From the NCBI GenBank assembly GCA_017871115.1, contig JAFCIZ010000001.1, positions 6,136,001-6,200,000 of the forward strand: 64,000 bases of DNA, given 5' to 3'. The DNA is from Cunninghamella blakesleeana. Lineage: Eukaryota; Mucoromycota; Mucoromycetes; Mucorales; Cunninghamellaceae. The notes under the pieces are model-generated. The model saw only the letters and a list, made by a program, of their open reading frames with translations. It was not told the DNA's origin and searched no databases. Position numbers and translations under genes: made by a program. Shown here one piece after another: positions 13,352 through 55,994 of the stretch; position 1 is the first letter of the stretch; each line of letters begins with the position of its first letter.

Positions 13352-14371
13352 ATGAAAAGCCATCTACTGCTGTTATTTTTGTTTTTATATACTGGATTAT
13401 GTAATAACACTAATAATATGTCTAGCGTTAAACAACCCATAAAAGCAGTAATAAACATAACAAATAGTATACCACAAGAATTTAAACAAATATACCATCC
13501 ATATCTACCAAAGTATGCTACCAGCAATAATGATAAGGATCAAGTAGTACCTACTAATAGTTGGATTTCCAATTTATTTTATCCAAGCTTAAATAATACC
13601 GCTCCAACAAATAGTGATCCTTATACAATAAGAGTTTTAGATACTCTTGTTGGCGGTAATCCTGGGCTTTCCATTACCCAACAAGAAATAAAAGAAACTG
13701 GTAGATATCAAGATTCAAAGAGTGTAAATAGCACAACAGCTACGGCAATGTCAGATTACTTGATCAATGGACAAACAGTAGAAATCAGATACTCATGTGA
13801 AGAATGGGGGGAACCGAAAATGTCTAATCAAAATAATAATAATAATATAACAACACAAGTAATATCTTGGGACCATTTTGGTGCAACAGTCCGTTTAATG
13901 TCACAAAAAGATGCTAAAAAATACATTGATTTTCCTATTGCAAGGGGGATGGCTTATGTTACGGCTCATTATCATGATTTGACCCCTCATTTTTTTACTC
14001 AACGTGCTATAATTCATATCAATAGTGATGGTCCTAAGGAGAACCAGAATGGTAATACTATTTACAATGGTAAACGTTTTACAATACAATTCAATGATAA
14101 AGAAGAAAGCGTTTTTATTATTTATGCCTTGGACGGAACCTTATCCTTAACCTTTGCTGGTTTATCAAGATTAGTTGCTAAAAAGCCATATAATGGAACC
14201 ATTCGTATTGCAAAAATTCCAAGAAAAGAAGATGAGCCTATTTTTGATCAATATAAAAATGCTTGGGCTACTGGTGGATTAGTGAAATGGAAAGAAGAGT
14301 AGGTAGAAAAAAGGATTCCTAGCAGTAAAAAAAAATCATTTTATTTTGGTATTAATAGTATGTCTTTTTTT

Positions 14372-16852: not shown

Positions 16853-17020
16853 TTAAAAATAACTATCAGAGTTACTGGGCCTAATTAATTGAGTAAAAGT
16901 GTATATAGCGGCTTCTAATTCTTCTTTACGAATAGGTTTACTAGCATAGCCATTCATTCCTATATATTAAGTTATAAATTGCATTTGATATCGGTATCAA
17001 TAAAAATATAAATACAAATA

Positions 17021-17054
<34 letters not shown>

Positions 17055-20000
17055 TTCTATCTTATGTAAATATTTTTCTTTTTTCTTTTTCTCTCTCTTT
17101 TTATTTTATTTTTAAAAAAACGTACCTGATTCAAAACATTTTTCTTTATCACCGTTCATTACACAAGCAGTCAATGCAATAATGTAAGGAAAAGTAGCAG
17201 TAGATTCTTCTCTTATTCTAGTGGCAACTTCGAGACCATTCATCACCGGCATACAAATATCCATTAATATTAATTCAATAGGCTGGCCTTGGTTTTTTGA
17301 TTCTATCCATTTATCGAGTGCCTCTTTACCATTATGTGCAATATCGCATGTTAATCCTATTCTGCTAAGCATCTTTGCTAAAACTTTTCGATTAATTGGG
17401 TTGTCATCCACTAGTAAAGCACGTACAGATCCAAGTACTTCAGAAAAATTGTAATTATGTTGCTGCTGTCTTGCTATTAATGGTGTACCTAACGGCGTAG
17501 CAGTTAAAGAAGTAGAGGCTAAGTTGATCGTTTTCTTTACGCCTTTACTAAGGCTTAGTTGAAATCCATTATTGTTTTGAATAGCGCTATTCCAACCAGG
17601 ATGAAGAAGGCTTTGTTCAGGGACCGTTTTATCTAATAATTCACTTTGATAGTGATTCTGTTGATTGATATTTACAAAAGATGAAGATGGTGATGATTGT
17701 GACAGTAGATGAAGACAGTGAATAAGTTTGGTATTTTTGAATGGTTTGGATAGTATTTGAATATCAAATGGGTTGGCACGTTCTTCTAGAGGTGTAATCA
17801 CATTCAAATTAGCATCAGGTGTAATTGGTGAATGTCTAAATGGATAGGTTGAAGTGGATGCAGTGGTTGATATTGTGTTGCGTAACCGAACATCATTTAT
17901 ACAAAGTTTTGGAATTGTAGAAATATCAAACATCTGTTGTAAAGATTGAAGTATAAAATTACTTGTCATTGTTTCTGTTTTAGATATATTTTGTAAAGTA
18001 TTCTTTTCAATAATTGTATTCTTATTGTCATTATTATTTTGTAATGAATCATTATCATAGGGATCAAAATCGGCATCAATAATAAGTGTTGTTGGAAGTT
18101 GATTCTTATATTCTTGCTGTTTGAATAGTTTTTTAAAGAATTCGATAGCTTCTGGATAAGTTAGCGCTTTTACATCTGTCATTCCAAAGTGTCGAAGTGT
18201 GTTAGTCCAAGATTGCTGTGTAACTTTTTTCCCAGAAATAACCAGAGGTCGAGTATTATATTTTCCCAAATCATTTAATTTAAACTGTTCACCGTATGTT
18301 GGACTATTTGGTTGAGTTGATAGTTTAACACGGAAATAAAACGTTGAACCTTCACCTTCTTCAGATTCAACCCACATATCTCCAGACATTAGACGAACTA
18401 ATTGTCTACTAATAGCAAGACCAAGACCTAATAATAATAATAATAATAACCAATTAAAGTTATTTTCATTTTATTTATATTTCTTCTTTTTTTTATATCC
18501 TTCATTATATCATATTATATTATAATATTTGAATACCTGTCCCGCCATAGTTTCTTGTAGTTGAAGTATCCACTTGTGAGAACGATTTAAACAGCTTCTT
18601 TTGTTTTGATTTAGGAATACCAATACCAGTATCAGCAATAGAAAATAAAAATGTTGAATTTTCAAGAGGGCTACAATCCGTGTCGCTGCTAGGAGTCTTC
18701 GTATGCATCCATTGAGGTTGACAATCGTCTGATTCATCTTCATCTTCTGGTTGAGTAAAATTTTTATTATTTTCTAAGGTGACACTAATAGTAACGGACC
18801 CTTTTTCAGTAAACTTAAATGCATTAGATAATCTTAAAAAATGGAGAAATGAATTTATATATTTTATTATATGTTAGTAAACCGTAAAATAATATTTTTT
18901 ATAATTACTAATAATAACGATAGTAAGATAAAAAAAAAAAAAATTAAACTTACAAATTTAGAATGATTTGTCTTAAACGTACAAGGTCGCCATATACATG
19001 TATAGGCAAATCAGGATCAATAAAGTAAAGAAGAGCTATCCCTTTTCCAAGATAATTGGATGAAAGTAACTTTATAGCACTTTCAATCACAAAAGTCTAT
19101 TAAAAAAAATTAAAAATTAAAAAAAAAAATTGAAAATAGATTATTTTTTCAAGTTATTTTCTATTCTAAAAGACTTACTAAGTCTAACTGGCTTCTTTCT
19201 AGTGTTAATCTACCAGACTCGATTTTTGAATAGTCTAAAATATCGTCAATGAGTGCAACAAGGTGGTTACCTAAAGTTAATTTATTTATTTTTAAAAAAT
19301 AATAATAAATATATATTAAATAAACACTATATATACTTAAAATTCAGAAATTTATATTTTTATATATTACCAGAAGATTCTATAGTTTCAGCGCATTCAT
19401 ACAGATCTGGAGGAAGGTTACTTTCCATTAACATTCTAGACATTCCAATCACAGCATTCATGGGCGTACGGATTTCTAGTGGTTAAAAAATACAAGCATA
19501 ATTAATATAAATTAACTTATGAATAAATAAATACATATATATATATACCAGTGATTTATTATTATTATTTTGCTTTACCATGACTCATATTTGCTAAAAA
19601 GTTTTGTTTTGATGCAGCGGCAGCTTCAGCAACCTCTTTTGCAGCCGACAAATCTAATTATGATTAATTAATAAAAATAGAAAAAAATACGATAAATACT
19701 AGTATAACTTCGTAACAATTGAAGTATCATTTTCATTTTAAATTATATTTTTAAATATATATATATAGTCACCTTTTAATAGTTTCTGTGTTCTTGCACG
19801 CTCTAGTTCCAATTCTTTAGTACGTACTACCAAGTGCTCAGTTCTTTTTCTTACTAATTTTTCCATATTATTTGCATATTTTTCCAGCTATTAAAAAAAA
19901 ATAAGTTTAGATGACTTAATAAATAATGTGATAATATTCTTTTTTATAAGAATAGACACTATACTTACAAGTATAGCCATATTATCTACAACATTATCGG

Positions 20001-22409
20001 AGTGAAAGAGATTTGGATCAATTCTTTTGATACGGTTCTATAAAGTAGAAAAAGAAGAATTACTAAATAAATACTTATATCTATAAATTAGGTTATATAA
20101 TAATAAAAATGATAAAAACACTCACACCAATACTGGAAAAATTAGGTCTTGCAGACGCATTTCGTTGCAAGCAGTCCATAATTATTGGATTGAAATTTTC
20201 AGCATAATCATTCTTCTTAGATAAATCAGGATAAAGTTGGTCAAAATATATCTTGTTAAATATATCTTCTACTGTTAATCCATCATCTAAGCATGACTGA
20301 TAAGGTAATTCTCTAGTAATAATTTCGTTCATAATTATACCAGCGCTATTTTTTCAAACATATATAAATATATATATGACTTGTGAGTATATAGTTATAA
20401 ACATTTTCATTATTTGTTTCTATATTATTACTATTTTCTATAACATTATTATTAGTATACCTATAAACATCTGCAGCTTTACTTGTATTTGTTACATATA
20501 TTCCCAGTGTGTTATATAAAATAGTTTCAGGTGCGATCCAAAGTAAATTTTTATTATGCTGAACAACGTTGAATCGACTGGAAATGCTTTCACCTTTTTC
20601 CAAATCAAAATGCTTATCTCGGACTGAATTAACGATTACTGAATCCAAATGTGATCGTCTAATTTTATTTAATCCATAATCTGAGATTTTTAGTTCCCAT
20701 TTACTTGATATGTAACAAGAATTAGAAGTCAGGCAACCATGTACAGAAAACTTAGAACGATGTAAAAATGCCATACCTTGTACCAAATCGTTGATTAATG
20801 AAAATCGAAATATCCATGTCAAGTCAATATCTGGGTCAGCCAGTACGTCAGCTAAAGAACCCTTTGCACAATATTCTAACATAACATGTATTGATGTATA
20901 TAATAAAATAAACACATATGTACATAATTTAACACTCACCATGATGTATATCTTTTTTTTATTGCTTTTGTATTTTATATTTTTTACCTTCAACAATAAA
21001 CATCGAATCAGGCTCCAAAATAATTCCAACAAATTCAACAAAATTTTGGTGGCGAGTTTCTTTCATCAAAACAGCTTCACTCCTTACTTCTTCATCAATA
21101 CGAATGCGTTTTGACCCAATTTGTTTAACAAATACAGGCAAATTACCACTATTAAAAAGAATCATGAAATTATAAATTAATTAATTACTACCAAAGTCAT
21201 CTACCTTTCTCTCTTTTTCTTTTATTTTTCTTTACCGATAACATTTTGTATAAATCAGGTCATTTTTTCCTTTATAATCTTTGGGTTCAAAATATTTATT
21301 TTGTGATCTATAGAATAAGTTAATATAATGTATTTCAATAGATTAGAATATATCTAAAGAAAAATAAAAATAGTAATAATAGTATACATATATATATAAT
21401 TAAAGTTGATTACCTTTTCACTATATATTTAGGACACTCAGTTGAACTTGCAGGAAAGTTCAAAATGGTATGGTCATTATCTTTGCTATAAATCTTGGTA
21501 TTATCAGAATCGCTATTATTACTATGAATACTAACAAGATTGTTTTCTTCTTCATTATTTTGGTAGTTATTATTGTTGTCATTGGTAGTGTAGTTATCTA
21601 TACAATTAACTGGATCATCATTTTTACCATCTGAGCAACTATTAAGTTCATTATTGATTGTGCTATTGTTGCTATTACTGTTAATATTGGAACTGTCAGG
21701 ATAACTACTATCATCTTCATCTCCACCATCTTTCCGTCCATTATCATTGTATAAATTTAATGTTGATATATCCTCTTCATGATAAAGGTTATGTTTATTT
21801 TTTTCATTGATGAGTTCATTGAAAGTGAGTAACCAAGTTTCATCTTGTAGTCGATGTCTTCGTAAAAGTGATTTTCGAATTTTCCATATGAATAAAGAAC
21901 AAACCAATAATAAAGAGACGATAGTGATAGGCACAAATATGGCTAATAATATGTGTCTTTGTTTCATGGTTTGATCTGCCTCATATGATTGACATTGAGA
22001 GTAAGGGTCTCCTACCATACACTGTGTACAAGAAGATGAACCAGGTAATGCATAAGTACCATAATCACATGGTGTACACATTTGCTGATCATATGTATCC
22101 GTATAAGTGTTTTCTTCGCAAGGTAAACATTGAAATGATAGTCTAGTACGTTGGTTGTTATCCATACAAAAATTATCAGGTGCCAATTGATTAATATAAG
22201 TACCAGGTGAACAAATTTCATTAACAGTAGGTGTAGCTAATTTTGTTTGCATCCACGGTTGAAATGAAATTGTATTATATAATAGAACATATAATAATGA
22301 TAAAAATCCGAGCGAGAATAAATTAAGATACCTAAAAATACAACATTTAATGATATTTTTTTAAAAAAAATGAAAAAATAAAATGAAAAAATAAGTAAAT
22401 AACTTGTGG

Positions 22410-22443
<34 letters not shown>

Positions 22444-25052
22444 ATATATATATATGAATTTGCATATAAATATAATGAATACCATGCGTGTTTTATTCTT
22501 CCTCCAATAAGCGCTTGAACTTGGTCGTATAAATCACTTGATGTATATACAATGGTATCTTTTTTTAAATAGCCTTTTAATATTCTCTAAATGTACAGTA
22601 TTAAAATAATAATAAAAATTTGAATGAGAATTTACAATTATTATTATTATTATTTATTGACAATATTACTACATACGGAGTTGATAATGTCAAAAATAGG
22701 ATCAGAAAAAGTAACAAAAGCATCAGGTTCATATTGATAACTTTTTAAATCCGATAAAATATTTTGAAATTGATTATCCATAGTATCGATAGTGGAAGTA
22801 TTGATGTAATGTACAACATGGTGCATTTCAGGGTGATTATTTATTGTTGATTGTTGTTTTTCAAAAGCTTGATAAAATTCTAGACATAGCTGACTTATAT
22901 ATAAATTCGTTTGTTCAGCAAAACAAGCAGGTGTTCTTATATTGTCCCTTTCTAAAGTTTCTACAAGCCCACTGACGACACTAGAAAAATCAATCGCCAC
23001 TTGAGGCCCAGTTAAGTTTAATTGTTCAAAAAACGAACCTATTTGTACCGTTGTAATCTTGTTTTCCTTGTTATATCTTTCTATTAATTCATTGCTAGAC
23101 TTTAAAATAATCCCATTGATTCCTACTTGTTTATAAATTGAAATATGAATATACATAAAAAAGAATTACATATATTAAAAAAAAAAAAAAAGGTTATAAT
23201 AATAAATAAAATTACCTTTGCTTGCTAAAGAAGATATATCTTGTTTAAGTTGTGCTTCTGAGCCTAGAAAAAAAAAAAAAAAAAAAAAAAGAGATCAATA
23301 AAAAATACTTTAAAATAACATGATTTAAAATAAAAGATTAAACTCTTAACTTACCGATTGACGATTGCTTTTAGTTAATAAATAGTAATAATAATAAAAT
23401 ATAAAAAAAAAAAAATTAAAAGCACGAAAAAAGCTAATGCATGAATAATATACCGCCTACCTCTGAGTTCAAAACTGTCCAATTCAAGTGTCGAGCCAAA
23501 TCAGATACACCCCGCATCATTGCTGAATTATATGTATCTCCAGCAATATTAGGTACTATTTTTATAATATATGTAAACGTAAATATTAGTTGGTAATTCA
23601 TAAATCATCTATTTTATTTTATTTTATTTTTTATGAAAAAAAAGTTATAAAAAATTACCAATAACACCAATATGATCAGAACGATCATTTAAAGGGATCA
23701 TTGTCGTTTGTTCATTTTCGAGTATTTCTGGCAAAGTACCATTAGTTACTAAATTTGGACCAGTATATATTGTTTCATTCGTGTAAACTTCTTTTCCAGT
23801 TAATATCTAACAATAGAATATATTAAAAAATGGGTTATTCTTTTTTTTTTTCACTTGGTTATTTTATTACATTTTATTTACATTACATTCAAATACATAT
23901 AAAAAACAGGAAGAGCAATTTCATAATAAGGTAATCGAGAAATAGCAAATACATTTTTATGTCTATGAAAGAGATTTGTCATATTGTTTCCACCAAGATC
24001 AAAAAAACCAATTCCCAAATTAATATTTGGATCACGGTTTAATAACGATAATGCTATTTCCGATATTAAATCAACCGAAGCCTATAATATATAAATATAT
24101 TTATTTGAAAAATAGAATAGAAAATAGAAAAAATCATATAAATGATTATTTTATTTATCAAATTTGAAGAAGAAAAAAAAGTGCTTCTTTTTTATCATTT
24201 TATTTTATTTCATATTCATTTATTACCGAACCACCTAGGGATATAATACAATCATGATTTCCTTTTTCAAATAATTGTTTAATTTCAGTTGTTGGGTCCA
24301 AAGTACTATTATTTGGTTTTATAAAAATTGGAGTTGAAGATGTTTTCATAGTATTTTGAATCCCTATCAACCGTTCTTTACAAGCTATATCATTAAGTTG
24401 AGCTGATTGAATAATTAATGGTGATGAAAACCCCTTTTCATATAACTGTTGACCTAATAATTCCCCTCCTTTTCTATCATTCGATAAAACTCTTGTTAAG
24501 CCTAATTGACTAGCATATTCTTTTCCTGTATTAAATACAATCATTGGTATATTTTTATTTGAAGCATATTTTGCTGCTTCAAAAACATTATCATCAGGTA
24601 TAGTTAAAATAATGCCATCGATATTCTATTAAAAAAAAAAAAAAAAAAAAGATTTGTCATTATTTTTTTTTTTTAAAAAAAAAAAAGGATATTTATACAA
24701 GACTCTATATTTTCATTTATCATTTATATATATATACTTGATCTACAGCTGAGCGAATATCATCACTCATTTTTAAACCGTTAGTGACTAAATGGCGATT
24801 CCATTCAATTTGAACATCAACAATGGTAGCAGCATCTAAAGCACCTTGTTCTGGATGATGAAAATAACTAGCTGCATTAGCTTCATCATGTGAAAAGACA
24901 GCTATACGTGGTTTTCTAGGATTATTTTGTAAATTACAGGTTGGTAGCCATAATTGGTTATGACTTGGTGACAACACACTGTTATTATTGATCAATTGAA
25001 AGGAGAAGGTAAACTTTAACAAAAAATTCAGTATCAATAATAAAGGCAACAT
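16853..25052 (-). CDS. Receptor hybrid histidine kinase: tandem PBP, Cys-rich stalk, TM, guanylyl-cyclase-type pseudokinase, HisKA, HATPase, receivers
   Basis: Twenty-three exons stay in phase for about 1950 residues: 24738-25052, 24227-24625, 23887-24081, 23659-23806, 23461-23555, 23355-23367, 23216-23263, 22677-23122, 22483-22586, 21414-22331, 21236-21307, 20988-21148, 20461-20875, 20126-20345, 19969-20037, 19773-19887, 19579-19653, 19371-19475, 19179-19270, 18954-19099, 18537-18832, 17126-18427, 16853-16959. Order: signal peptide; type I periplasmic-binding-like domains at about 45-345 and 350-612; CxxC-rich stalk 618-702; TM 715-738; Asn/Asp-rich linker; pseudokinase 915-1183 (Lys926 kept, HGC at 1017-1019, DYG at 1037-1039); cyclase-type helix from [18 protein letters not shown]; phospho-acceptor His1269 in MSHEIRTPMN; N, G1 (DTGIGIP), F and G2 boxes; degenerate receiver about 1541-1725; receiver with Asp1872. 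It should sense an extracellular small molecule and signal by phosphorelay. The domain calls are strong; the ligand is unknown. Confidence 0.85.
17022..17053. repeat. TTA microsatellite inside a receptor-kinase intron
   Basis: About ten TTA units lie in the last intron of the receptor kinase gene (16960-17125). Confidence 0.85.
23355..23367 (-). other. Predicted 13-nt microexon of the receptor kinase
   Basis: Thirteen bases lie between an AAAAG acceptor and a GTAAGT donor, and their inclusion keeps the frame. A simpler option, extending the upstream exon by 7 nt to a GTATAT donor, also keeps the frame. The choice changes only a few residues of the second binding domain. Confidence 0.4.
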
Positions 25053-27912: not shown

Positions 27913-30706
27913 TTAGCTTTCTTGAAACTCGATTAAAACTTGCCCTGATTTCACGTTATTTCCTGGGTATACATAAATTTTCTTGACTATTCCGTTACGT
28001 GTACTTCTTAATATATTTTGCATCTTCATTGCTTCTACAACTACTAAAGGCTCTCCAGATTGAACCTGTTAAATATAAATTAAAAGCATTACTATTAGTA
28101 TAATTGTCTATATAACATCCTGTTTTTATTTTATTTTATTTTTCAATATTGTAATATACCTGATCTCCTTCTTTTATAGCTATACTAATAATCCTTCCAG
28201 GCATTGGACTTTGGATCCATTCGCTCTGTTGTTCTTTACTTTTAGTTTTCATATATTTTAATAAACGGTGTTGTTGTTCATTTAGCACTGTAACGTTGAA
28301 CTATTTATATATACATATATAATATGAACATATAAGTATCATTTTTGACGATATATAATAAGATTTTTCTAGCAATAATAATAATATTAATATATATTTA
28401 TTTTTATTTTATTTTTTTTACCTTGCTACCACGATATTGTACTCTAAACCCGGATTCTAAAGTGTCCAAATATTGTAAAATAAATGTACCACCATCTTGT
28501 AATTGTGTACGTGATAACAATCCATCTAATGGCCAATGCATAGAATAAGTACCAGAAAAATTCGATGTTGAAACCTGAAAAAAAAAATAGTACAATAGTA
28601 ACAATTAATATTATTTTTTTTTATTCATATATAAATATATGTATATATATACATATAACCTTTTTTTTAACTCTTTTATATATACATATACATATAATTA
28701 TTCTTATTATTATAATATATACCTCGAATTGTTGTTGATCAAGCATTGATGTTGTTACTTTTACTTCCGAAATTTTTTCATTTTGATCATTCATTAATTG
28801 AACCCATAATGGATTGTTATTATTAAATAATGCTGTAGATTGTTGTAATCTACTTTGCTCTTTCTTCATCCACATACCACATACAATAGCAGAAAGTTTA
28901 TCTATATCTTCTGAGGTCATTGTTGGGGGCTGGAATCCATCAGGGTATTCATTTGCTAAAAAATGGGTTGAAATATTCCCACTTTGAAATTTAGGATGAG
29001 CTACTACACCACGAAGTAAAGGAATATTATGAGTAACACCTTTTATAACATATTCATCTAATGCTTTGATCATTGTATCCATAGCCTCTTGTCTTGTTTC
29101 CCCATGTGTTGCTAATTTACATATCAATGGATCATATTCTACATGAATGCTTGAACCTTCTATAAATCCTGAATCACATCTTATCGAATTATTTGCAGGG
29201 CAGTACTGCTGATTATTATTATTACTATTATTATTATTATTATTATCATTTATCATATCAATTTGAGGTTCTTGGTACGTTAATAATCTACCTATAGATG
29301 GTAAATAATTTTTAGGATCTTCCGCATACACTCTAGCTTCAATAGCCCACCCATTCACTTTGATATCAGATTGTTTCAAGCTTAAAGGATACCCAGCTGC
29401 TGAATAAATCATCTGCTCCACTAAATCTAATCCTGTGACATATTCAGTAATTGGATGTTCCACTTGTAATCGAGTATTCATTTCCAAAAAATAGAAGTTT
29501 CTTTCTTTATCCACTAAAAATTCCACTGTTCCAGCTGAATGATAACCAACGTGTTGAGCTAAAGCTACTGCTTGTTCTCCCATTGCTTTTCGAGTAGCAT
29601 CATCTAAATGTACACTTGGTGATTCCTCTATAACTTTTTGATTACGACGCTGAATAGAACATTCTCTTTCAGGTAAATAAATAACGTTTCCATGCTTATC
29701 GCCCAAAACTTGAATTTCAATATGGCGAGGCTGATCAATATATTTTTCTACTAGTAGGCGATCATCGCCAAAAGCGAATCGACTCTCTTGTTTTGCCAAC
29801 ATGTACCCATCTTTTAAATCACTATCAGTCCATGCAATTCGCATCCCTTTCCCACCACCTCCAGCACTTGCCTTGATCATCACTGGATAGCCTATGTCGT
29901 GAGCTACTTGCTTTGCATGTTCAAAAGAAAGAATTTCACCATGATAACCAGGGATTACATTTACACCACTTGCTTCTGCTAATTTTTTACTTTGAATTTT
30001 ATCGCCCATTGCTGATATCGCCCATGCTGAAGGTCCAACAAATAATATATGGTTTTTGGTTAATGCTTCTACAAAATGAGGGTTTTCACTAAGAAACCCA
30101 TAACCAGGATGTACGGCATCACAGCCTGTTGATGTGGCTGCTGATACGATACGATCGATAGACAAATAAGAATCAGCTGGCTCCCCAGGTCCAAGTCGTA
30201 CTGATTCATCTGCTAGTTGTACATGTAAAGAATTCATATCCAAATCAGAATAAACAGCAACTGTACGAATCCCCATAAATTTTGCTGTTTTAATAATACG
30301 ACAAGCTATTTCACCTCTATTGGCAATCAACAGTTTATTAAACGTCTATCATAAGAAAGAGAAAGAAAGAAAGAGGGATAAAAAAAATAAGCTACAGCCC
30401 TTGATAATAAAAATAATAATAATAATAAAATAATGATAAACCTGATTATTTTTGTATTTATTTTTTTACCTTTTTATATCCTGTAACTGTGTTGTACTTG
30501 TGAGCAATAAACTTATTGACAATAGTGTTATTTTTTGAGGAACGCGGTTTATGATGCATAGTTAAAAAACGCTGTTTATAAGAGTGGAGTAATACATTAT
30601 TTGATATTAAATATTTATGTTTAAAAGTAGAATGACGTATGTTATAAGCTAATAAAGGCAAAGTTGATTGTGAAGGAGAGGCATATCTAGAGAGAATATA
30701 ATTCAT
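27913..30706 (-). CDS. Propionyl-CoA carboxylase alpha subunit, mitochondrial (biotin carboxylase and carrier)
   Basis: Five exons (30470-30706, 28723-30345, 28422-28574, 28160-28300, 27913-28065) give 768 residues. A basic presequence precedes the biotin carboxylase domain (from about residue 82, [13 protein letters not shown]). Key motifs are the ATP-grasp glycine loop [12 protein letters not shown], the [14 protein letters not shown] catalytic segment and [17 protein letters not shown]. The segment [19 protein letters not shown] and the [12 protein letters not shown] stretch are diagnostic of propionyl-CoA carboxylase rather than pyruvate, acetyl-CoA or methylcrotonyl-CoA carboxylase. The C-terminal biotinyl domain has EAMKMQN with biotin-accepting Lys732. 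It would carboxylate propionyl-CoA to methylmalonyl-CoA with a beta subunit not in this window. An upstream in-frame ATG at 30742 is possible. Confidence 0.9.
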
Positions 30707-33800: not shown

Positions 33801-35783
33801 TTAAATAGCACCGACTGCCATTCCTAAAGTATTTCTTCTTTGTTCTTGCCAACCAATTCCAATAGAACTACATCCATATGGCCATCTAACATTTAATCCA
33901 TATAATGATTCCATTTCACGCATAAACCCACCAAAATAATTCCATAATTGCTGATCCTTTTGTGCTTTTGGAAATCCACCTCCAGGCCATACCATTTTAG
34001 AATGATCCTTATGTATCATGAACTCTTTATGTAAAACCATAAATTTATATCCTTCAGCATTCAAATGTAAAGCATGTGATTGTTTATCTCCACCTTGATT
34101 TTTAAATCTAACATCATATAAAGGCGAGTTTCTTGGTATAATATAATAGGGTTCCCATTGTGATTCATAACATACTTCATAACTAACAGATTCTAAATTG
34201 GTAATGGGCGATGTTGTTGGATTGGTTATTCTTACTGCTAACTCTTTCCCTAATGTTGGTCCATGCCCTGCCCCATCATCTGTAATATAAGCAATCCCTT
34301 GATCAATTAACTGTTTGACGTCTTCCATTGATTCAGGTAAAGGTGTATCTTTGTACTGTTCATGTATTGCAAAACAAGGGACTACTAAGGCTGTTTTATG
34401 TTGATATTTACCCATAACACTGGCTAATATATTTTGTACTGATAAATATAAAGTTGCCGATGGGACAAAATCTGCATCTATTACATAAATATAAGGTGTA
34501 GTAGTTGACATAATGGCGAGATTGCGTAAATGATTAATAGGATATCGCAGCCGTTCATCATAATCCTTTTTGTCGTAGCTTGGTTTTACTAACGTGACAC
34601 CGACTTGTTCATATAATTTTAGATTATCCTGATCTTCAAAAAACGTTTTTACATGTTCGATATCATTCTGCTCTGTAAGATAGCTATTTAATAACAACAA
34701 CAGTAAAGAGAGTGGTAAAAGTTAGTAATTTGCTCCTAAAAAGAAGTATGGTATGCATATAATTACATTGTTACTGAAATTGGACCTTGCCAAGCTTCAA
34801 TTACTTTGGAGAATACATTTAGTCTATTGACTGAAAATTGAGATACCAAAGTTACCATATCTTCTGTAGAACTATTCACAGGTCGAGCAAGTATAATTTC
34901 TTCGTTTATTTTATTAGGATCTAAATACATAATACGTATATAACAATAATAATAATAATAATAATAAAATCATATTTAATTATATTATTTATTCATTTCA
35001 ATTTTTATGTCCCTATTATTTTCTATATATTACCTTCATCCATTATTGATGCTAATTGTGATGCCAATAAATAAATATCATCTATAATTTGTTAAAATAT
35101 GTACAAGAAATAAGAAAAAATGCATATGTATAAAGCTTATATTAAATTGGAAATTATTCATATTAATATCATAAGTATAACTATATATAAAAAACTTTAC
35201 TTTGAATTTTCATAGCTACAACGTTTCGACAATCATTTTTCATACAGTCAAGATATTGACCAGGGGATAAAGAAACCCACTGTGTACCGTCTGTTAGCCT
35301 AGGAGCGTTTTCATCTTGTACTTGAATAGATACAATATTACAACCTGGATCTACTTTAATAGTAGCTACATCGCGATACACATTTTCTTTAGATAGATCG
35401 TCCCAGTCATATAAAAGATGTTGTGGATCAGCGTACCAAGTAGAACATCGCTGTGAAGGATTGCATAATTCTACATGGCAAAAAGTAGGTTGTGTATAAG
35501 TAGGTTGCTCTAATAATTGTGAATATAGTGGTGATGAAGCAGTGGATGATGACGAGGATGAAAGTGATTGGCGTAATATATATAAAATGAAAATACCAAC
35601 AATACTGCTAATAAAAACTGCTCCTTTATTCGATAGAAAATAGTGTCCTTGATGAAAATATAGTGAATCCCGCTTTTTCTTATCGTTATAATAATAATTA
35701 GGTTGTTTTATATTAAAACTATTTAAATTATTATCTGTTCCAGATCGTTTAACAGAATAAAATGTTCGTTTTGATTTGTCCAT
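33801..35783 (-). CDS. LARGE/B4GAT1-type glycosyltransferase (GT49), type II membrane protein
   Basis: Four exons (35201-35783, 35034-35081, 34767-34920, 33801-34683) give 555 residues. A short cytosolic N-terminus precedes one membrane anchor at about residues 54-70 (GAVFISSIVGIFILYIL), then a Ser-rich stem, the usual layout of a Golgi transferase. The catalytic domain has the nucleotide-sugar/metal motif DAD at 331-333 inside YIYVIDADFVPS, the GHGPT segment, WEPYYIIPRNSPLYDVRF and the late HKDHSK and NVRWPYGCSSIGIGW segments. These match GT49 proteins that build glucuronate- or xylose-containing glycans in animals. The acceptor in a fungus is unknown. Internal Cys in the stem may form disulphides. 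Confidence 0.85.
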
Positions 35784-54279: not shown

Positions 54280-55994
54280 ATGTCACTTTATGATTTATTA
54301 TTACTTACATTAACCAATCATACAATGTAAGTCAAGTGTTTTTACTTATTTTTATACATATTTTTTTTATTTTTATTATTTGTACATTTTATATATTAAG
54401 TTATTATTATTAAAAAATTATTTTATTTTATTACTATTATGCTTTTATAAAACTATATTTGATATAAAGTGATGAACTTGGTTTATTACCGTGTATTCCT
54501 GATAAAAATGAGATACCTCTAGCAACTCAACACTATTACCCTTTATTTGTTTATGAATCTAAATTAGGAATCAGTCTTGATAGTATCGTTGTTTTATTAA
54601 AAGAAGCTCAACAGCGTTTTCTTTACTATCAACAGCCGCAACAATGTGACAATTTAATACAGTTGGAGCAAGCAAGTAGAATATTAATCATGTTGAAACC
54701 TGATCATTATACTTCAATGAATACAAGGTATATTTCTTTTACATTTATAAACTTGTATAAATACAACGTACACCATTTGAAAATAGATTCTTTTATTTAC
54801 TTGTTTATTTTATTATTATCTACTTAGAAAAAAGTTAATCCAGTTAGGCCATATTAAAGTAAAAGACGAGTTAGAATTAATAGATTTGATTTTTACTATA
54901 CCAAGAAATACAAAAAGCTCTATAGCATGGCATCATAGGTAATAATAATTACGCGAAAAGAAATAAATACTTTTATAAATACGCAAGTAAACCTATCAAT
55001 AACTACCATGCTCATTACTGTCCTAATTTATGTTGTTATTTTTTTTTTTTTTTTAAATATATATAGAAAATGGCTCATTCAGTGTCAATATAAAAATATA
55101 AAGAATTTGGATATAGAAAAAGAAATCAAAATATGTGAAAGATGTATTCAACTCCATCCAAGAAATTATTATGCATGGGAATATCGTTATTGGCTCATCA
55201 GTACTTTTTTAAAACACGATATTCAAAAAATCATTAAGGAATATCAGGCAATGTGCCAATGGATTGAAAACAATGTTAGTGATCATTCTGGTATCAGCTA
55301 TATTGAACAGCTTTTAAAACTATTGACAGCAATTTTATTAGTCAAGAATAATGAAGAAAAGGAAGAAGAGAATGATAAACTTAATCTTGAAACAATTATG
55401 CAATCTCATTTAATATGGTTAGATCAGCTTGTATCATCATATGAGGGACATGAAACGTTATGGTGCCACAAAAGGTGCTGTACTTCTTTATGGATAGATC
55501 TACACAAGCCATCATCAGCGGCATTATTATCATCTTGGTTTATACAACAGCATGAATCAACAAAACAACTGTTATTCGAGTTAAATCCATCTCACCATCA
55601 TCTTATTTCTTTATCTAAACAACAAGAACACCAATTCATATTCGCTTCTAAATATGGATTATGGTTATGTTTAATGGTAAACGATATGATTATAAGTTAT
55701 AACGTAACCGAGCAGTATTAGGAAGAAATATGGATGCATGATGATATATACATGAAAGAAAACATAAATATGCCAGAAAATAAAACGGAGATTTATCATA
55801 ATGAAAAAAAGTTCAAGGGGTACCATTTTTAAACTTTTATGTTATTATTTATATTATAATAGGAAAAACGACATCAACAAATAAGGCCTATTGAACAAAC
55901 GAAAGCAAATGATTTAGTTGATTTTTATTTACAAGCACTACAATTATATGATTCCACGCCTATTTACTCATCATGGAAATTATTTTTACAATAA
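54280..55994 (+). CDS. PTAR1-like protein prenyltransferase alpha subunit (GGTase-III type)
   Basis: Five exons (54280-54326, 54470-54727, 54828-54938, 55067-55676, 55863-55994) give 385 residues. The N-terminus reads IDELGLLPCIP, then YPLFVYESKLGISLDSIV, as in PTAR1. Helical-hairpin prenyltransferase alpha repeats follow: SIAWHHRKWLIQC, PRNYYAWEYRYWLIS and ETLWCHKRCCTSLW. PTAR1 pairs with the RabGGTase beta subunit in GGTase-III, which adds geranylgeranyl to already farnesylated proteins such as YKT6. The beta subunit is not in this window. Farnesyltransferase or RabGGTase alpha are alternatives, but the N-terminal motif favours PTAR1. The start ATG is chosen because its 47-nt exon joins in phase. 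Confidence 0.8.

Follow-up and report, generated by a model that had tools for sequence, protein, structure and literature searches.

Here, we describe a gene of the fungus Cunninghamella blakesleeana (positions 16853 to 25052, minus strand, of the 64,000-nucleotide stretch analysed, hereafter the window) whose product appears to combine the chassis of animal receptor guanylyl cyclases (RGCs) with a histidine-kinase output. We consider it likely that the protein is a receptor hybrid histidine kinase that crosses the membrane once and probably acts as a homodimer; closure of its outer domains on a ligand would be passed on through an inactive kinase-homology domain (KHD) and an uninterrupted coiled coil. 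Both the domain content and the constant spacing can be read directly from the sequences; the identity of the ligand and the phosphotransfer we infer. Judged by the sequences compared, the chassis is shared and the output differs, as the cyclase of animal RGCs and the histidine kinase described here occupy the same slot behind a signalling helix. An initial annotation of this DNA had described a KHD running via its helix into HisKA (MSHEIRTPMN) and HATPase, and these parts indeed lie in one gene with Pfam support (1941-aa model, see below: PK_Tyr_Ser-Thr 102.7 bits, HATPase_c 95.1, Response_reg 81.1, HisKA 73.7, Peripla_BP_4 59.2), whereas the class III cyclase domain PF00211 was not matched in the query protein. 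The window covers bases 6136001-6200000 of contig 1 in a genome of 31.9 Mb and 12 contigs, and its G+C content is 26%.

Where the initial annotation had read one continuous 23-exon frame, our splice model, obtained with a small dynamic programme, corrected by hand and finally settled against the relative P0001, reaches the same exon count, including a 13-nt microexon, and all 22 introns (minus strand, 25052-16853) are GT-AG. P0001, a C. blakesleeana protein, aligns with residues 1-1950 of the query at 74.5% identity, and this end-to-end relative rules out chance open frames. The Pfam, PDB and homolog searches were run with an earlier model of 1941 aa, which lacked seven residues of exon 3 and the microexon; its differences from the 1950-aa model are confined to the ectodomain. 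Two separate genes, or a chance join in the assembly or gene model, seem hardly credible. The basis is genome sequence and predicted relatives, and a 119-nt intron parts the helix exon from the HisKA exon, which would leave a place for such a split. However, the HisKA exon begins mid-codon (phase 1), 119 nt offer little room for the end of one gene and the start of another, gene models of 108 of 121 fungal relatives show this order too, and a paralog shares the introns; together, the mid-codon start, the order in relatives and the shared introns rule out a gene divided between helix and HisKA. This paralog (C1:3224490-3228514) was the only one found when the genome was searched with the KHD, helix and HisKA of the query. 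By eye, its outer domains are of the same kind, and its introns at the helix/HisKA junction and within the H-box match those of the query in place and phase.

Relatives with this domain order were found in both Mucorales and Mortierellomycota. Querying with the KHD and helix returned 29 proteins at E <= 1e-10, comprising 22 with Mucorales names, six RGCs (four from insects, one from Opistho-2 and one unnamed) and one plant kinase. A further search used P0021, a paralogous protein, with a query extending into HisKA, and was evaluated for its best 120 of 2213 matches, and the genera recognised among the matches listed belong to Mucorales and Mortierellomycota. Some Mortierellomycota carry several copies per genome, with at least three proteins in Podila epigama and at least three in Linnemannia zychae sharing a locus-tag prefix. 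Pooling both searches gave the 121 fungal relatives, in which motif patterns identified the H-box in 119, the helix in 118, the KHD loop in 112 and all three in 108; the other 13 lack at least one pattern through truncation or a pattern miss. Because P0001 is related end to end and 108 of 121 relatives show all three patterns, the joining of these domains is not due to chance. Pfam detected a kinase family in all 22 Mucorales members scanned, HisKA in 21, HATPase_c and Response_reg in 19 each, Peripla_BP_4 in 14 and PF07699 in 8, and there was no cyclase family among the 12 Pfam families that these members matched. An ectodomain search with P0002 found 11 proteins, nine of them with PF07714; P0129 and P0130 consist of binding domains only and are perhaps short gene models. 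No Rhizopus or Phycomyces name occurred among the matches listed in the KHD-helix, P0021 and ectodomain searches, and no further test was made. Some family proteins bear the public names 'RGC/RGC protein kinase' (P0011, P0098) or 'Guanylate cyclase', and some database annotation thus recognises the RGC likeness.

Sequence comparison supports the claim of a guanylyl-cyclase-type KHD with its dimerisation helix. Against PDB sequences, the KHD plus helix matched GC-A best (146 bits, with the alignment continuing through the helix), followed by GC-C (94) and RAF (66), and the KHD alone gave 116 bits with GC-A, 79 with GC-C and at best 66 with B-Raf. When an 83-aa helix query was used, three GC-A sequences were the best of six matches (E 0.0018), the next having E 0.2. 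The HG.LxS, DYG and EYCxKGSL stretches align with GC-A. We built two trees from hand-picked rows, each holding 21 Mortierellomycota rows, 22 Mucorales rows (among them the query and its paralog) and five of the six RGCs of the first search (P0025 omitted). The first (55 rows), in which distant outgroup kinases sit on very long branches, supported the fungal family at 100/99, RGCs plus the fungal family at 93/85, and the fungal family beside three insect RGCs at 92/49. For the second (54 rows), GC-A, GC-C and B-Raf were added and own_CDK, own_GCN2, own_BCK1 and P0029b removed. Here, the fungal family received 100/100, and RGCs and the fungal family formed one clade at 100/98 against B-Raf, the plant kinase and two kinases that look PAK-like by eye; the branching order inside this clade is unresolved, and the tool issued a long-branch warning. 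Mucorales (100/100) and Mortierellomycota (96/89) form one clade each in the KHD tree, which fits, as far as these sequences go, a single origin of the fungal family before the two groups split. P0027 (an ENA protein of 1275 aa) is an RGC with another binding-protein ectodomain (PF02608) followed by KHD, helix and cyclase; at the C-terminus it is similar to the Opistho-2 protein P0026, and in the tree it forms a long branch at the base of the RGCs.

Alternatively, the KHD could derive from an ordinary TKL-type kinase and the helix could be generic, as in Sln1, so that the likeness to RGCs would be convergence. We regard this as unlikely, although several observations speak for it. Many histidine kinases, yeast Sln1p among them, have a signalling helix upstream (PMC1592074). 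B-Raf is matched by sequence too, at the 66 bits given above, and in the first search the plant kinase scored 133 bits, compared with 144-158 bits for the RGCs. Furthermore, fold comparison does not separate RGCs from RIPK2 or B-Raf, with which the KHD ties; we therefore dropped it as proof of kinship, other kinases scoring alike, and let the kinship rest on sequence. For the record, the AlphaFold model of the relative P0034 matches the GC-A KHD (9bcp_B, Foldseek) with a TM-score of 0.71 by target length and 30% identity. What speaks against a TKL origin is the excess of GC-A over B-Raf for the KHD alone, the support of the RGC and fungal clade in both trees, the aligned stretches, and the helix query, which picks GC-A. 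Moreover, according to PMC1592074, a signalling helix downstream of a kinase domain had been observed in animal RGCs only. Kinship with RGCs thus remains the reading that we prefer.

The KHD is predicted to be catalytically inactive. By eye, the query keeps the VAIK Lys (926) and the DFG Asp (1037), and the HRD Asp is replaced by Cys (1019). Of 122 sequences, 118 could be scored for catalytic residues, query included, and none carried the HRD Asp and DFG Asp together. The HRD Asp is absent from all 29 Mucorales members scored and the DFG Asp is kept in 23 of them, the same pattern as in the animal RGC segments compared. In Mortierellomycota, the DFG Asp is absent from 89 of 89 members scored, and 43 of the 89 have an Asp at the HRD position. 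These sequences indicate that the two groups lack catalysis through different residues, i.e., the HRD Asp in Mucorales and the DFG Asp in Mortierellomycota, which may reflect separate losses or, in one of the groups, a regain. A receptor with an active kinase domain, which would be both a Ser/Thr-Tyr and a His kinase, is in our judgement very improbable. Such activity would draw on the two residues kept in the query and on the HRD-position Asp, which occurs in 43 of the 118 and always in Mortierellomycota. It is opposed by the absence of any member with both aspartates, by the Cys of the query, and by the VAIK Lys itself, which is replaced by Arg in 48 of 92 Mortierellomycota rows (27 Lys, 17 unmatched by the pattern); in Mucorales, the Lys was found in 21 of 30 rows, nine being unmatched.

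The coupling of the KHD to its output is marked by a fixed spacing. In 115 of the 117 proteins having both, 44 residues separate the end (RT) of the helix motif from MSHEIRT, and from the start of the helix motif to the start of the H-box there are 60 in 116 of 118 (query included). The distance from the H-box to a second motif of the dimerisation and histidine phosphotransfer (DHp) domain is likewise constant (46 in 116 of 117), and the same holds for the interval between this second motif and the N-box (69 in 74 of 75). Other intervals vary widely, with 35 lengths among 61 proteins for HG-to-APE, 37 among 73 for N-box-to-G2 and 78 among 107 for G2-to-receiver. In the AlphaFold model of P0034 (monomer; 55 sequences in the alignment, mean pLDDT 81.4, pTM 0.51), a single helix (384-472; block pLDDT 55-71) connects the RGC helix with DHp helix 1; the phospho-His lies at 454. 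Foldseek matched this model to the intracellular part of GC-A and to the histidine kinases ShkA (6qrj, best), GacS and RetS.

Behind the helix, HisKA, HATPase_c and a receiver stand in one chain with a phospho-acceptor His and Asp, the combination that defines a hybrid histidine kinase. The plural 'receivers' of the initial annotation holds for the C-terminal one, which is canonical. In the AlphaFold model of the relative P0034, the other (17697-18251) shows a receiver-like (beta-alpha)5 pattern, but no acidic pair is seen by eye, and we therefore call it a pseudo-receiver. One could suppose that the histidine-kinase part no longer serves a phosphorelay and has become a structural or regulatory scaffold, given that one pseudo-receiver is present. 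We find this improbable, as the scores of HisKA, HATPase_c and Response_reg in the query clearly exceed the cut-offs, the H-box is kept in 119 of 121 relatives, and the genome has a place for a histidine phosphotransfer (Hpt) protein. Specifically, a six-frame, exon-by-exon survey counted one Hpt place, 15 receiver places and seven HisKA places (receptor gene and paralog included). With its HisKA part, the KHD-helix-HisKA query also matched two histidine kinases with HAMP repeats, at 75 bits each, and, more weakly, two further HisKA places (36 and 35 bits); its KHD part matched other kinases at 39.6 bits or below. The genome has two hybrid histidine kinases with long repeats of HAMP type, at C4:311905 and C5:4357720, which by eye belong to the group III kind. 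The survey found two class III cyclase places; the genes concerned also contain leucine-rich repeats and a PP2C-like part and by eye are of the fungal adenylyl-cyclase type. Neither overlaps a KHD match, and no cyclase on the same chassis was found elsewhere in the genome. The two genes (C8:1035000-1044500 and C6:4130500-4140000) appear by eye to be duplicates.

The extracellular side was correctly foreseen as binding domains followed by a single transmembrane (TM) helix: there are two type-1 periplasmic-binding-like domains, and a simple hydropathy scan of the query calls only 21884-21955 as TM. The ectodomain resembles sugar-binding proteins, and XylFII chains are among its fold matches. In Pfam it matched Peripla_BP_4 and Peripla_BP_1, and not ANF_receptor (PF01094). 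The second domain shows an alternation of strands and helices in the P0019 model, at mixed confidence. In the same model, a conserved hydrophobic segment ahead of the stalk (22253-22330) forms a low-confidence helix; the matching place passes the TM threshold of the simple scan in P0002, P0003 and P0019, and does not in the query. The Cys-rich stalk described by the initial annotation is present with nine Cys, but in the query itself Pfam gave it no more than a sub-threshold NCD3G match (E 0.0064, 1941-aa model). Among 22 Mucorales relatives, Pfam identified PF07699 (formerly GCC2_GCC3) in 8 and NCD3G in 6.

How a signal might pass can be sketched by analogy with GC-A and GC-C (PMC12493192) and with what is generally known of histidine kinases. 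The ligand would be a small molecule, most likely a sugar or a similar compound, on which the outer domains would close, and the TM helices of the dimer would shift upon closure. The pseudokinase, which perhaps binds ATP, as has been reported for GC-C, could then act as an allosteric clutch that sets the register of the coiled coil. Continuing into the first DHp helix, the coiled coil would switch His autophosphorylation, and the phosphate would be handed to the C-terminal receiver and then to the cell's Hpt protein. The kinase may be restrained by the pseudo-receiver.

Among known systems, RGCs such as GC-A/NPR1, GC-C and Gyc76C share the order of ectodomain, single TM, KHD without the HRD Asp, and dimerisation helix. 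The query differs from them in lacking a cyclase, with histidine kinase and receivers in that place, and in having a Peripla_BP ectodomain instead of ANF_receptor. The latter is usual in animal RGCs, whose ectodomain has the same general binding-protein fold. In bacteria, XylFII-LytS likewise links a sugar-binding-protein domain to a histidine kinase but is not known to have a KHD or stalk, and the Bacteroides hybrid sensors are further histidine kinases driven by sugar-binding proteins. ShkA, the bacterial protein that best matches the cytoplasmic model, carries a pseudo-receiver and a receiver after its kinase core and is not known to have a KHD. Group X of fungal hybrid histidine kinases has a GAF domain between the kinase-related domain and HisKA, and no GAF was matched in the query at E 0.01 (Pfam). 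Group X shares with the query a Ser/Thr kinase domain before the histidine kinase, but it lies outside the TM-rich groups listed in PMC8510515. Sln1 and group VI are, like the query, TM receptor hybrid kinases with a signalling helix (PMC1592074); the query has no HAMP or Cache match in Pfam, one TM called instead of two, and an inserted KHD.

Contrary to the initial annotation, which knew of no described family of this shape and proposed an unrecorded, distinct class of fungal transmembrane sensor, the coarse architecture is probably already catalogued, and the claim was too strong. PMC8510515, which cites Defosse 2015 and Kabbara 2019 for the histidine-kinase groups, places Ser/Thr kinase domains in groups X and XVI and TM regions in group XVI among others. 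The query has the traits given there for group XVI, a protein-kinase domain and a TM region together with a histidine kinase, and the receptor family, compared by description only, probably corresponds to this group; some database names, moreover, already say 'RGC'. In the sections of PMC8510515 available, however, there is no mention for group XVI of RGC kinship, the helix, the outer domains or an exchange of output, and the available parts of PMC4965123, PMC11224324 and PMC12959091 contain nothing on group XVI. The literature searched yielded no link of fungal histidine kinases with RGCs.

We tentatively suggest, as a scenario that may well turn out otherwise, a Mucoromycota-wide receptor family (with several copies per Mortierellomycota genome) that arose from an opisthokont RGC by exchange of the catalytic domain behind the dimerisation helix and provides sugar-type external sensors; the chassis of an animal hormone receptor would then drive a phosphorelay of bacterial type. 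If true, the RGC class of kinases, none of which was found in 30 fungal proteomes in 2010 (PMC2838846), would exist in fungi, and the helix would be a plug that fits both cyclase and phosphorelay outputs. No fungal guanylate cyclase has been described according to PMC8778642, yet the class is highly abundant in Glomeromycotina by the method used there. Early-diverging fungi are reported to have 'unprecedented' hybrid histidine kinases, most with TM helices (PMC5285503), and some of them, Mucoromycotina included, have 15-20 histidine kinases (PMC4965123). The family points to a set of membrane sensors in fungi, where most hybrid histidine kinases are not bound to a membrane (the database of PMC8510515 has 15% membrane-bound). 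Nature would, if the chassis is shared, have performed a domain-swap experiment, in which the same pseudokinase and helix drive two unrelated outputs. What the KHD and helix transmit, and whether a change of register can be read by any dimeric output, thereby becomes a testable question.

Table 1 Features of the receptor gene in the window; domain borders were placed by hand on the 1950-aa model.
Feature	Residues	Window positions	Strand	Basis or remark
Whole gene, 23 exons, 1950 aa		16853..25052	-	Splice model, aligned end to end with P0001
Microexon 6, 13 nt		23355..23367	-	Yields NSEQSSIGSE vs NSEQASIGTE in P0001
Hydrophobic N-terminus, likely signal peptide	1-20	24993..25052	-	By eye on sequence, no predictor
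First type-1 periplasmic-binding domain	46-334	23714..24917	-	
Second type-1 periplasmic-binding-like domain	347-588	22331..23677	-	Weak CcpA/LacI matches, 21-23 bits
Conserved hydrophobic segment ahead of stalk	589-614	22253..22330	-	Alignment consensus and hydropathy scan
Cys-rich stalk, nine Cys	626-703	21986..22219	-	Sequence
Single transmembrane helix	714-737	21884..21955	-	Hydropathy 2.78
Asn-rich juxtamembrane segment	737-894	21307..21886	-	Sequence
RGC-type KHD	909-1191	20014..21264	-	Pfam, PDB sequence search, tree
Signalling/dimerisation helix	1196-1243	19777..20001	-	PDB search with GC-A best; constant spacing to H-box
HisKA/DHp	phospho-acceptor His 1269 in MSHEIRTPMN	19179..19630	-	HisKA 73.7 bits
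HATPase_c	to 1517	18321..19096	-	95.1 bits
Pseudo-receiver	1541-1725	17697..18251	-	(beta-alpha)5 at P0034 model residues 718-850; no DD pair by eye
Canonical receiver	1816-1939; phospho-acceptor Asp in LILMDICMP	16889..17426	-	Response_reg 81.1 bits

Elsewhere in the window, the plus strand carries genes for a glycosyl hydrolase 81 (13352-14299) and a protein prenyltransferase alpha (55008-55718), and the minus strand those for a biotin carboxylase (28624-30330) and a dystroglycan-type glycosyltransferase 49 (33804-34700).

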